Below, piece by piece: positions 32,932 through 38,927 of a DNA stretch of 64,000 bases (the first letter of the stretch is position 1; the number at the start of each line of letters is the position of its first letter). The notes below the pieces were generated by a model, which was not told the origin of the DNA, made no database searches, and was given only the letters and a program-made list of their open reading frames with translations. The DNA is taken from assembly GCF_024362525.1 (NCBI RefSeq), contig NZ_CP101458.1:186001-250000 (forward strand), written 5' to 3'. A program made the translations under genes and the position numbers. This DNA is from Natrononativus amylolyticus (GTDB lineage Archaea > Halobacteriota > Halobacteria > Halobacteriales > Natrialbaceae).

Positions 32932-33738
32932 TCACTCGACGACGTGTTCGGTGTCGTACGAGCCCAGTCGCCGCACCCACCCCAGCTCTGCGATCGACTC
33001 GAGGTCGGCGATGGCGTTCCGGGTTCGCTCCTCGTAGAGGCCGGCGGCGACGTCGATGTGGAAGACGTAGTCGCCGAGGCGCTCGCCGCTGGGGCGTGAC
33101 TCGACGCGAGTCAGGTTGATGTCCCGCTCGGCGAACGGCTCGAGCAACTCGAGCAGCAGGCCGGGGTAGTTCGCGTCGGGGTAGACGATGAGTGAGGTCT
33201 TCCCGCCGGCTTCCGAGCGCTCCTCGACGGGCGCCAGCACGAAAAAGCGCGTGGCGTTCGACGTCTGGTCCTGGATGTCCGCCGCCAGCACCTCGAGGTC
33301 GTCGCCCGCGTTGCCGGGGTGGCCGATCCCCGCGACGGTGGGATCCTCGCGGGCGCGCTCGACGCCGCGGGCCGTGCTCGTAACCGCCTCGAGGCTGGCG
33401 TCGGGGTACTCGCTCTCGAGGTAGCTGCGACACTGTGCGAGCGCCTGGGAGTGGCTGGCGACCGTCTCTACCTCGGGGCGCTGGGCGAGCAGCGCGTGTC
33501 TGATCGGGGTGACGATCTCCTTGACGACGGCGACGTCGTACTCGGCGACGGCGTCGAGACTCTCGGTGACGCTTCCTTCGATGCTGTTTTCGACGGGGAC
33601 GATCCCGCGGTCGTACTCGCCGGAGGCGACGGCGGCGACGATCTCGGTCACCGACTGTCGGAACTCGATCTCGTCGGCTACCGCGCGACTCGCCCGGTGT
33701 GAGTACGTGCCCGTGGGACCGAGCGTGACTGCGATCAT
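32932..33738 (-). CDS. pheA: Prephenate dehydratase
   Basis: 268 residues. Catalytic-domain motifs are LGPTGTYSHRAS at the N-terminus, VPVENSIEGSV, GNAGDDLEVLAADIQDQTSNATRFFVL with the TRF triad, and a C-terminal ACT domain with ESRPSGERLGDYVFHIDV, where Phe feedback acts. It converts prephenate to phenylpyruvate for Phe synthesis. There is no fused chorismate mutase. A TATA-like GCGTTTTTCC about 28 bp upstream implies a leaderless message. pheST lies less than 2 kb away. Confidence 0.95.
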   Translation of the reverse strand: MIAVTLGPTGTYSHRASRAVADEIEFRQSVTEIVAAVASGEYDRGIVPVENSIEGSVTESLDAVAEYDVAVVKEIVTPIRHALLAQRPEVETVASHSQALAQCRSYLESEYPDASLEAVTSTARGVERAREDPTVAGIGHPGNAGDDLEVLAADIQDQTSNATRFFVLAPVEERSEAGGKTSLIVYPDANYPGLLLELLEPFAERDINLTRVESRPSGERLGDYVFHIDVAAGLYEERTRNAIADLESIAELGWVRRLGSYDTEHVVE

Positions 33739-35252: not shown

Positions 35253-37031
35253 CTATCGAAGTGCTCCGAGGTCGAACTCGAACGCCGCCACGGGTACCTC
35301 GAGGTCGTGCTCGACGAGCACTTCAGGGTGGACCTCGCCGATGACGCCCACTTTTTCGCCGTCGATGACGATCGCCGCCGTTCGACCCGGAATGAACGTC
35401 GGGTGCTCCGTGGGGGGCGTCTCGAGGTCGACGCCGAAGTTCCGGGCGATCGCCTGGAGTCGCGCTTTGGCGTCCTCGTAAGCGGCGTCGTGGCTCGCGA
35501 GGGCCGCCGAGACGTGGCGGCTCTCGCCGACGCCGGTGTTCTCCGTGTCGTCGACGCGCGCCGAGAACCCGATCTCCGCGAGGTGCTGCGGATAGGCGCG
35601 GTGGGTGTTTCGCTCGAGAACCATCAACAGCGAGGGAAGCACCCAGGTTCGCAGCATCGTGTAGTCCTCGCTGTAGGGCTCTTTGATGACCGCCGGCTCG
35701 CCGGCGCCGTAGGCGCCCTCGTCCGGAGAGAGCCCCATCCGGTCGAAGTTCTCGGTTTCGTTGATCATGTGGAAGTTCAGCATGTCCTCGAAGCCGAGTC
35801 CGACGAGCGCCGTGCGCGCAGCGTCCTCGAGGCGGCTGCGCTCGTGGCGGCCGCCGACGGTGCCGACGTCGGGGTAGCGCGGCTCGAGGTCGTTGAAGCC
35901 GTAGGCCCGCCCGAGGTCGTCGATCAGGTCGAGCGGATGGAGCACGTCGACGCGGTAGGGCGGGATCGTCATCTCGTAGGTCGCGCCGCCGTCGTCCGCT
36001 TCGACGGTTTCCGCGTCGAGCCCCGATCGCTCGGCGAGGTCGACGACCTCTTCGGGATCGAAGTCCACTCCGAGCAGCGTCTCGATGCGGTCGTGGCTCA
36101 CGATCTTGGTTTTCGTCGAGAGGTCCGGTCGAACGAGTTCACGCTCGCCGGCCCTGCTGTCGGGGTACTCGACCGTCACCTCCTCGATCGTCGCTCCGCG
36201 CGCGGAGAGCGCGTAGCAGACGATGGTGAGCATCTTGTCGATCGTCCACTGGTCGGTGCCGGTCATCTCGACGAACAGGTCCCGCGAGTCCGTCGTTACT
36301 TCGGTGCGGCGGCCGTTGATCACCGGCGGGAACGAGAACAGCCCGAGGTCGTCGTAAATCGCCGGGTAGCGCTCGTACTCGCCCACGAGGTCGGCGTACG
36401 TCTTGCCGGTCTGGTGTTCCTCGAGCACCGCCGCCGGCGTCAGCTCCGAATCCGAGTCGAGCGGGACGAACCGGTCTCCGTCGGGTTCGACGCCGACGTA
36501 CTCGATGGTGGGGGTCCCCTCCGTCGCGGGGCTCGCTCGCGGCTCGTCGCCGCTCGCGTTTTCCGATGCGCGTAGCGCATCGCGCCCCTTCAACATCGTC
36601 AGGTCGTGAATCCCGATCGCGCCCTTCGCGCGCTTTCGGCCCATCGTCGCGTGCAGCTTCTCCTGGAGCTGGATCAACGAGTCGAGACTCTCCTCGTCGA
36701 GGTCGACGTCGCGGATCACCGCGCCGGTGACGTAGGGGCGCTCGTCGGGCACCGAGTCGTCGACGACGATCGTCCAGTCGGGGGCGTTCGTCTTCGGGAC
36801 GTACACCCCGCGCGAATCGCCGTACTGGTAGCGAAGCGAGCGGGCGACGCCCTCGACCGAGAGCCGATCGAGGCGATCGGGAGCGAACTCGAGTTCGAAC
36901 TCGCCGTCTTCCGTCTCCCCTTCGTACTCGAGGCCGAGCGCGAACAGGTCGTCGATCAGTTCGTCGTCGCCCTTCTCGTCGTGGCCGGTCAGTTCGCGCA
37001 GTTCGTCGGGGTGGATGTCGACGGTTGGCAT
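35253..37031 (-). CDS. pheT: Phenylalanyl-tRNA synthetase beta subunit
   Basis: 592 residues, archaeal PheT size. It starts MPTVDIHPDELRELTG at the ATG at 37031, which shares one base with the pheS stop (TGATG), so translation is coupled. B3/B4 editing domain segments (ATMGRKRAKGAIGIHDL) and the B5 domain (TVEYPDSR...YRVDVLHPLDLIDDLGRAYGFNDLEP) are visible. With PheS it forms the (alpha-beta)2 enzyme that charges tRNA-Phe and hydrolyses Tyr-tRNA-Phe. The longer open frame upstream is a shadow of pheS. Confidence 0.95.
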   Translation of the reverse strand: MPTVDIHPDELRELTGHDEKGDDELIDDLFALGLEYEGETEDGEFELEFAPDRLDRLSVEGVARSLRYQYGDSRGVYVPKTNAPDWTIVVDDSVPDERPYVTGAVIRDVDLDEESLDSLIQLQEKLHATMGRKRAKGAIGIHDLTMLKGRDALRASENASGDEPRASPATEGTPTIEYVGVEPDGDRFVPLDSDSELTPAAVLEEHQTGKTYADLVGEYERYPAIYDDLGLFSFPPVINGRRTEVTTDSRDLFVEMTGTDQWTIDKMLTIVCYALSARGATIEEVTVEYPDSRAGERELVRPDLSTKTKIVSHDRIETLLGVDFDPEEVVDLAERSGLDAETVEADDGGATYEMTIPPYRVDVLHPLDLIDDLGRAYGFNDLEPRYPDVGTVGGRHERSRLEDAARTALVGLGFEDMLNFHMINETENFDRMGLSPDEGAYGAGEPAVIKEPYSEDYTMLRTWVLPSLLMVLERNTHRAYPQHLAEIGFSARVDDTENTGVGESRHVSAALASHDAAYEDAKARLQAIARNFGVDLETPPTEHPTFIPGRTAAIVIDGEKVGVIGEVHPEVLVEHDLEVPVAAFEFDLGALR

Positions 37032-38545
37032 CAGTAGGTCACCTCCGTTTCCCGCAGCAGTTCGAGGTCGCAGAGCGTGCCGTGGATGTCGCGGATGTCC
37101 TCGAAGCCGTACATCAGCATGAGCAGCCGCTCTAAGGCGAGTCCCCAGGCCATCACGTCGCACTCTACCCCGAGGGGCTCGAGCATCTCCTCGCGGAAGA
37201 TACCCGAGTTGCCGATCTCGACCAGTTCGCCGGTGGTCGGGTGGGTACCGAACAGCTCGAAGCTCGGCTCCGTGTAGGGGTTGTAGTGGGGTTTGAACCG
37301 AATGTCGGTGATCCCGAACTGGGCGTAGAACTCCTCGAAGGTGCCCATCAGATCCCGAACCGAGAGGTCCTCCGCCATCACCCAGCCCTCGATCTGGAAG
37401 AATTCCAGCAAGTGGGTCGGATCCAGCGTGTCGTTGCGGTACACCTTCTCGACGCTGAAGAACCGGGCGGGCGGCTCGATCTCGCCGATCTCGGTTCCCG
37501 AGAGGTACCGCGCCGACAGCGACGTCGTGTGCCCGCGCAGGGCGAGCGCCCGCGCGAACTCCTCGTCCCACGGCGAGTGGTAGCCCTCGCCGTCTTCCCC
37601 GACGCCCTCCCGGTGAGCGCGTTCGACGCGTTCGACGAGGTCCTCGGGGAGGTGGTCGATGTGGGTCGGGTTCTCGAGGGCGAACCGGTCCCAGTGGGTC
37701 CTGGCGGGGTGGTCCTGGGGCATGAACAGACAGTCGTTGATCCAGAAGTCGGCGTCGACGTGGGGACCCTCCATCTCCTGAAAGCCCATCCCGACGAGGA
37801 CGTCTTTCACGCGATCTGCGGTCTGACGGAGGATGTGGACCTTTCCACCGGAAACCGACTCGGCGTCGGCCTCGACGTTGTACTCGGCGAACTCGACGTC
37901 CGCCCACTCGCCGCTCGTGAGCAGTTCGGGGGTGAGCTGGCCGACGGTTTCGGCCGTCTCGAGGCCCGCCATCAGCTCCGTCACGCCGGCGTCGGTCAGC
38001 GTCACTTCTCGGGTTGTGGCTTCTCGCCGCTCGGCGAGCCCGCGGCGCTCGAGCTGGTCGATCGTCTCCTCGTCGATTCCAGCCGCGCCCTCGCCCGCTG
38101 CGAGGGTCTCGAGTGCCGACGCCTCCGGGTCGGCCGCCGGATCGGCGTCCCGGTCGGCCGAGAGTTCGCCGCTCTCGATCGCACCGTACCCCTTCCGGGC
38201 GTAGTTCGAGAGCGCGATGTCGACCTGCGGGCCGCCGAGTCCGGAGGTGCCGATCACCCGCCCCATCGAGACGGGATCGGCGTCGGCGCCGGCCTCGAGG
38301 GCGGCCTCGTACAGCCGGACCTCCGGCAGTCCCTCAGTGGCGTACTCCTCGCCCTCCTCGGTGAGCGAGATCGTTTCGTCGACGCGCTCGTCCACGGCGA
38401 CCAGGCCGGCCTCCTCGAGTTCGAACACCGCGCCCGTGACGGTCTCCGGCGGGAGGTCGGTCGCCGCAGCGAGGGCCTCGACGGACTGGGCCTCGTCCGC
38501 GCTCGCGGTCTCCATGACCGCGACCTGTGGTTGTGGCAGTTGCAT
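37031..38545 (-). CDS. pheS: Phenylalanyl-tRNA synthetase alpha subunit
   Basis: 504 residues. An N-terminal winged-helix set (about residues 15-200) binds tRNA; the class II core shows HPARTHWDRF, TTSLSARYL, RFFSVEKVYRNDTLDPTHLLEFFQIEG (motif 2) and GWGLALERLLMLMYG-like motif 3 (MAWGLALERLLMLMYG). It is archaeal/eukaryotic in type. ATG at 38545. No typical TATA box lies within 60 bp of the start; the 382-bp upstream region carries the candidate Phe leader (38684-38767). Confidence 0.95.
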   Translation of the reverse strand: MQLPQPQVAVMETASADEAQSVEALAAATDLPPETVTGAVFELEEAGLVAVDERVDETISLTEEGEEYATEGLPEVRLYEAALEAGADADPVSMGRVIGTSGLGGPQVDIALSNYARKGYGAIESGELSADRDADPAADPEASALETLAAGEGAAGIDEETIDQLERRGLAERREATTREVTLTDAGVTELMAGLETAETVGQLTPELLTSGEWADVEFAEYNVEADAESVSGGKVHILRQTADRVKDVLVGMGFQEMEGPHVDADFWINDCLFMPQDHPARTHWDRFALENPTHIDHLPEDLVERVERAHREGVGEDGEGYHSPWDEEFARALALRGHTTSLSARYLSGTEIGEIEPPARFFSVEKVYRNDTLDPTHLLEFFQIEGWVMAEDLSVRDLMGTFEEFYAQFGITDIRFKPHYNPYTEPSFELFGTHPTTGELVEIGNSGIFREEMLEPLGVECDVMAWGLALERLLMLMYGFEDIRDIHGTLCDLELLRETEVTY

Positions 38546-38683
38546 TCGCTTGTTCGTAAGGCTGCGTGTCGGTCAGTTAGCGGTTCCGATACTGTCGAAG
38601 CGGTCGACGCGGACCGTCCGTTCGGCGTCGATCGCGCGGTCGGTTTCCTCCCGGTCCGGCGCGGACTCGAGACTCCACCGCAC

Positions 38684-38767
38684 CTACACGCTAAAAAAGC
38701 CGAATCCCGAGCGCGGCTGCGGACGCTGGCGGGCAGTGCTGGCACGGTCGTGGGATTCGGATGCCAT
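38684..38767 (-). CDS. Candidate Phe-rich leader peptide of pheST
   Basis: 27 codons from an ATG at 38767 to TAG at 38684. The last eight residues are SGFGFFSV, three Phe among them at positions 22, 24 and 25, encoded TTC GGC TTT TTT. A TATA-like AAGGTTTTTC is centred 27 bp before the ATG, the spacing of a leaderless transcript. pheS begins 138 bp further on. The Phe codons overlap both a hairpin arm and the T6 tract. This resembles amino-acid leader peptides of attenuated operons in bacteria. Alternatively the T6 is simply a TATA box for pheS and the Phe codons are chance. No homology can be tested here. Confidence 0.45.
   Translation of the reverse strand: MASESHDRASTARQRPQPRSGFGFFSV
38693..38760 (-). 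terminator. Alternative hairpins beside a T6 tract in the pheST leader
   Basis: On the minus strand CCGAATCCC (38760-38752) pairs perfectly with GGGATTCGG (38708-38700). A competing short stem pairs AGCCG (38718-38714) with CGGCT (38702-38698), directly followed by TTTTT. The two stems share bases and exclude each other; the tract TTTTTT is 38698-38693. This is the layout of a terminator/antiterminator pair. Confidence 0.4.
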
Positions 38768-38790
38768 ACTCGAGAGTCGCCCGGTCTCGA

Positions 38791-38800
38791 GAAAAACCTT
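38791..38800 (-). promoter_or_regulatory. TATA-like box of the pheST leader
   Basis: AAGGTTTTTC on the minus strand. Its T-run is centred 27 bp upstream of the leader ATG. A closely similar GCGTTTTTCC stands at the same distance before pheA. Confidence 0.4.
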
Positions 38801-38927
38801 GCGGGTCTTTCACACCCGCGGCGCGTCTCTCCCCGCGCGCGACGGCCGACCGCCGGGTCCCGAACCTCCGAGTGCCCTGCGTGAGACGGCAGCGAGCTAC
38901 TTCCGTCCGAAGCCCGTACTCGGTGGT

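Follow-up and report, generated by a model that had tools for sequence, protein, structure and literature searches.

A conserved Phe-rich leader upstream of pheST in Halobacteria as a candidate ribosome-mediated sensor of phenylalanyl-tRNA

The leader region of pheST

The window analysed here, a stretch of 64,000 nucleotides from Natrononativus amylolyticus, carries on its minus strand trpS, further ORFs, a leader region, pheS and pheT. Its pheS falls among those of Natrialbaceae. The pheA gene (prephenate dehydratase; 33232-33726, minus strand) lies a few genes below pheST and is without a leader of its own. The following features, all on the minus strand, are referred to below:

38792-38804, P1, putative leader promoter: BRE-like CCGCAAGG and TATA-like TTTTT (38796-38792), a conserved T-run
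38684-38767, leader ORF of 27 codons plus TAG, MASESHDRASTARQRPQPRSGFGFFSV: homologues upstream of pheS, frame kept
38752-38760, 5' strand of hairpin H1, codons 3-6, CCGAATCCC: pairing and double changes
38700-38708, 3' strand of H1, Ser-Gly-Phe-Gly codons, GGGATTCGG: pairing and double changes
38693-38704, Phe codons F22, F24 and F25 (TTC GGC TTT TTT), U-rich
38698-38693, T6 run
38638-38683, hairpin H2, 3' of the stop codon, with outer helix, internal loop and covarying inner helix: covariation, covariance model
38676-38674 and 38647-38645, GGA and opposite GAA of the H2 internal loop
38571-38590, P2, pheS promoter-like block, CGGAACCGCTAACTGACC: conserved core, putative promoter role
37031-38545, pheS: ORF and homology
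35253-37031, pheT: ORF

The 27-codon Phe-rich ORF, the TATA-like box, the stems and the T6 tract had been described in an earlier sequence-only reading of this DNA, and all of them were found where it had placed them.

Conservation and codon choice of the leader ORF

Regions of 420 nt upstream of pheS were read in 81 loci, 80 of them from a pheS scan of species genomes and one from the window. A leader ORF is present in 66 (65 named loci and the window). The homologous ORFs start with ATG, comprise 25-48 codons, begin with M-x-x-E-[S/P] with small variations, and have GFGFFFA or something close to it at their end; the last 10 residues include 3-5 Phe in all 66. A peptide profile matches 215 of 394 Halobacteria genomes, in 61 of 86 genera; in a phylum-wide genome draw it returned no match outside the order. 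The best profile matches adjoin pheS wherever this was tested (31/31). Lesser matches, considered as second leader copies within a genome, sit in unrelated genes and were rejected as chance. Comparison of the peptide with NCBIfam gave no match. Six changes are needed to place the presence of the leader on the pheS tree, and the leader appears to have been lost several times, repeated gain being less likely.

Altered versions occur in three further loci (L007, L047, L071). In L007, where the leader lies about 166 nt upstream of pheS, the Phe codons are interrupted by an insertion; this brings CCGAAACCGGCC, which resembles a 3' strand of H2, into the Phe-codon region, and an H2-like hairpin is also found 3' of the stop. 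In L047, a MAG, the leader is out of frame. The leader ORFs of L012, L016, L020, L285 and L296 have grown to 46-50 codons by in-frame insertions, some resembling internal duplications, and H1 and the Phe end are kept.

The distance from the ATG to GGRTTC, the Gly-Phe codons, is divisible by three in 61 of 62 loci, although the length of the ORF varies. This conservation of frame and codons suggests that the leader ORF is translated. A T-run starts 29-30 nt upstream of the leader ATG in 64 of 66 homologues (P1 consensus CCGcAACGtTTTTg). Because spacing of this size is expected for leaderless haloarchaeal mRNA, the leader transcript is probably leaderless, with its 5' end at or near the ATG.

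Codons in the middle of the ORF are little constrained (27 synonymous vs 42 nonsynonymous single-base changes in close pairs), as would be expected if the regulatory codons and the pairing alone matter. Since these middle codons change freely, the peptide does not have the look of a functional small protein, for which purifying selection throughout would be anticipated. Codon choice elsewhere in the ORF is skewed. TTT is used at 53 of 174 Phe codons F2-F4 (30%), as against 58 of 1234 pheS Phe codons in the same loci (4.7%; p = 2e-22). The Gly codon preceding F1 is GGA or GGG in 64 of 65 cases, vs 32% of Gly codons in pheS, and the Glu4 codon is GAA in 61 of 64, vs 26% in pheS.

Two conserved hairpins and a promoter-like block of pheS

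H1 is a stem of 9 bp in which codons 3-6 pair with the Gly-Phe-Gly codons, and it accounts for the otherwise odd codon choices at Glu4 and at the Gly before F1. Synonymous recoding of the window peptide produced a perfect 9-bp stem by chance in 8 of 5000 trials. Across 65 sequences, 574 of 585 cells are paired, vs a mean of 547 (sd 2.6, max 557) in shuffles. A formal alignment gives 98.3% paired cells, with double changes at 3 pairs, from C-G to U-A and to G-C. Linked codons follow the pairing: Leu3 CTC occurs with Asp GAC, Ser AGC with Ala GCG, Ser5 TCC with Gly GGA or GGG, and Pro5 CCC with GGG, never with C opposite A. In L301 and L302, a Glu-to-Asp change is matched by Phe1 to Val, and the H1 pair is kept. 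The tree-aware independent-pairs sign test is without power at position 13:81, where changes on the tree are few. Since the N-terminal residues follow the H1 pairing, the conserved start of the peptide is largely an RNA constraint.

The U-rich Phe codons lie directly 3' of H1, with a run of at least T5 in 39 and of T6 in 10 of the 66 ORFs, an arrangement resembling a pause or terminator hairpin. An essential terminator role for the T6 tract does not agree with these counts. The 5-bp stem (AGCCG/CGGCT) that had been taken to compete with H1 is perfect at that offset only in the window's own sequence and does not rise above chance.

The second conserved hairpin, overlooked in the earlier reading, lies past the stop codon, and H1 and H2 coexist in predicted folds; the idea of two alternative hairpins inside the ORF is not supported. 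H2 starts a few bases past the stop and consists of an outer helix (CGGY/ACCG and an extension), an internal loop and a long inner helix whose sequence varies. The GGA/GAA internal loop is near-invariant (63/63, 57/63 and 63/63). Pairing is found in 84.9% of cells vs 66.4% in shuffled alignments, both sides change at 12 of 15 pairs, and the covariation score is 0.481 vs 0.166, a value reached in 0 of 500 shuffles. In slid controls pairing drops to 34-51%. The joint alignment of H1 and H2 is paired in 91.0% of cells, with 145 doubly changed cells vs 44.6. Within H2 of L044 (about 2861-2917), the 3' strand GGACGAAACCGC seems to be duplicated, giving two CGAAACCG motifs. A kink-turn reading of H2 was rejected on the misfit of its geometry and bases, and comparison of the H2 region with Rfam gave no match.

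A covariance model (R1) was built from H2 alone. It returned one H2 copy each in 75 of 195 genomes, and the places checked lie upstream of pheS in 37 of 37 cases (30 returned loci and 7 more that were fetched). A Phe-rich ORF is present at 29 of the 30 loci, including divergent ORFs that the peptide profile had missed. Because the model holds at most a few ORF bases, this is a nearly independent confirmation of the leader. A T4 run between the leader stop and P2 is found in 0 of 66 leaders; hence H2 is not followed by a bacterial-type intrinsic terminator (hairpin plus U tract).

P2 has the core AAnnGnTAA[CA], most commonly 40 nt before the pheS ATG, and is kept in 61 of 65 loci with a leader and in 13 of 15 pheS regions of loci that have no leader ORF. 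It may represent the own promoter of pheS. As P2 is conserved with or without the leader, the leader is probably an added, regulated input beside P2, and at most one of two. That pheS transcripts might start downstream of 38690 had been named as a point against the leader. A promoter-like block does lie there, as foreseen.

Folding runs on the leader RNA, in which ribosome-sized segments were blocked, predict that H1 is lost and H2 mostly kept when the ribosome sits at the Phe codons, and that the foot of H2 is lost when it sits at the stop codon. The predicted mean probability of the H2 outer helix is 0.51 in the free RNA, 0.40 with the ribosome stalled on Phe codons and 0.06 with the ribosome at the stop. 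Also considered was a switch in which the Phe region would pair with the CGAAACC in H2, whose sequence nearly repeats the 5' strand of H1. It was rejected, since this pairing is predicted at 2-6% and the CGAAACC bases display no co-change with the Phe region.

Possible mechanism, alternatives and known systems

Based on this dataset, we consider it likely that in Halobacteria the region serves pheST as a leader that senses phenylalanyl-tRNA by way of the ribosome. In this model the leading ribosome would follow RNA polymerase along the leader, and the polymerase would tend to pause at H1 and the U-rich Phe codons, much as at a bacterial attenuator pause hairpin. With Phe-tRNA plentiful, the ribosome would reach the stop codon and its front would cover the foot of H2. 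When Phe-tRNA runs short, it would halt on the Phe codons and hold H1 open, leaving H2 free to fold whole. The state of H2 would then set how much P1 transcript reaches pheST, on top of the basal supply from P2. Because no U-tract terminator follows H2, the read-out would most likely be premature transcription termination or cleavage by aCPSF1/FttA on the untranslated stretch, with pausing and RNA stability as other candidates. The direction, with a whole H2 raising pheST output, is a guess on physiological grounds. In Haloferax, ribosomal proteins and initiation factors are recovered together with purified RNA polymerase, pointing to transcription-translation coupling (PMC8576121), and aCPSF1/FttA termination has been proposed to compete with ribosomes (PMC8116511; on polarity see also PMC12548453). 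These reports make the mechanism plausible. Points against it are the coexistence of H1 and H2 in predicted folds, the low predicted share of the switch pairing, the lack of a poly-U run past H2, the promoter-like block that pheS has to itself, the loss of the leader in several lineages, and the deviating leaders of L007 and L047.

Attenuation had already been suggested for this DNA by the sequence-only reading. Its central element, a Phe-coding ORF upstream of an archaeal pheST whose Phe region is a hairpin arm, is retained here, and the 5-bp rival stem and the T6 terminator are not. The comparison of haloarchaeal pheST upstream regions that it had proposed as a check was clearly passed: ORF, Phe codons and 9-bp stem are conserved over the class, and non-conservation is excluded.

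An alternative reading, to which we give a small but real chance, is a stand-alone small mRNA or regulatory RNA. P1 would make the ORF RNA with H2 as its stable 3' end, pheS would be expressed from P2 alone, and the RNA or peptide would act elsewhere, for which peTrpL of Sinorhizobium offers a comparison (PMC7298713). The conservation of P2 independently of the leader, and a stable H2 that coexists with H1, would fit. However, the leader always adjoins pheS (31/31 by the peptide profile and 37/37 by R1), the middle of the peptide is weakly constrained, and the Phe codons match the cognate enzyme.

Less probable still is an operator, with PheRS or another protein binding H2 and the ORF being secondary. 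Such regulation has a precedent in ThrRS of E. coli, which binds its own mRNA. Near-invariance, as in the GGA/GAA internal loop, typically marks a contact with a protein or within a tertiary fold, and the GAA of H2 equals the anticodon of tRNA-Phe, but this GAA lies outside any hairpin loop, and the frame of the ORF, the position of its stop and its TTT-rich Phe codons are more conserved than H2 would require.

An ordinary origin, in which a T tract (T6 being present in the window) or the pheS promoter would have produced the Phe codons incidentally, both raised earlier as chance Phe codons and as T6 serving as the pheS TATA box, can be set aside almost entirely, since Phe codons occur in 66/66 ORFs and T6 in 10/66 only, the promoter-like block of pheS sits elsewhere (38571-38590), and both pairing and frame are conserved.

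The case for a phenylalanyl-tRNA-sensing leader is helped by a second, clear leader of comparable build at another amino-acid operon. At 18 of 23 loci in relatives, ilvB is preceded by a short ORF with IIVGA or a variant of it at the end, most of these leaders having an GTAGGGGC/GCCCCTAC-type hairpin that spans the stop codon. The ORFs (L198-L218) end in LIIVGA before the stop, with rare ATT and GTA codons. With a profile of this leader, 65 of 195 class genomes gave a match at an E value of 0.05 or lower, among them genomes of lineages without the Phe leader. The organism's own ilvB leader (L315/L198) lies outside the window, just upstream of ilvB:

G000:C1:2196247-2196324, minus strand, ilvB leader

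Scans of relatives found neither a Trp leader upstream of trpE or trpD nor a Phe leader upstream of pheA, and double as a negative control for the leader search. The region upstream of trpD (e.g. L222, L230, L237) instead holds a conserved GTACATTGGTGT-like stretch and, on the other strand, an apparent tRNA gene.

The ilvB leader resembles the Phe leader in its leaderless-type ORF ending in cognate codons (LIIVGA), in its stop-codon hairpin and in its place upstream of the cognate operon; it differs in its peptide and in the simple hairpin across the stop. It is to us an evenly balanced proposition that leader switches of this kind, ribosome-mediated and amino-acid-sensing, form a class of Halobacteria's own (with pheST and ilvB as its least membership), which arose independently of bacterial attenuators and relies on archaeal pausing and aCPSF1/FttA termination instead of hairpin-plus-U-tract terminators. 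Given the second leader at ilvB, the device may be a general archaeal one.

Attenuation by leader peptides is a classic of bacterial gene regulation and requires that a ribosome closely follow RNA polymerase. A review on archaeal coupling makes no mention of attenuation (PMC8116511), and our literature search found no archaeal amino-acid leader-peptide attenuation; its coverage of subscription papers and preprints was thin, and absence is therefore unproven. Whether archaeal coupling is tight enough for attenuation is a question for which a conserved pheST leader in tractable haloarchaea offers a direct test. H2, being without an Rfam match, is also of interest as a conserved RNA element in its own right.

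Among known systems, T-box riboswitches control pheST in Bacillus, and CGGUGGAC of H2 faintly recalls the T-box antiterminator. Unlike a T-box, the leader has a translated-type ORF instead of stem I and a specifier loop, and no Rfam match. A T-box reading of H2 was rejected: the base after UGG is A, mismatched to A73 of tRNA-Phe, and neither stem I nor a fitting UGGN was found.

With the trp, his and ilv attenuators of bacteria the leader shares regulatory codons near the end of the ORF, a possible pause hairpin and a conserved hairpin beside the stop. In contrast to these, no mutually exclusive terminator and antiterminator emerged from the folding runs on the haloarchaeal leader, and the termination machinery differs, being aCPSF1/FttA in archaea (PMC8116511). 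A short, cognate-rich and putatively translated ORF upstream of the cognate operon, and conserved hairpins that overlap and follow its codons, make the leader attenuator-like by anatomy, but we stop short of calling it a proven attenuator.

In its logic the leader comes closest to the pheM-pheST attenuator of E. coli, in which pheM encodes the Phe-rich attenuator peptide (PMC5371410). Both have the same target operon, a short Phe-rich ORF ahead of it, and hairpins overlapping or following the Phe codons. The haloarchaeal leader differs in its archaeal host, its probably leaderless ORF, an H1 built from the ORF's own start, the purine internal loop of H2, the lack of a U-tract terminator and the extra promoter-like block downstream. 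If true, this parallel would be a strong case of convergent evolution.
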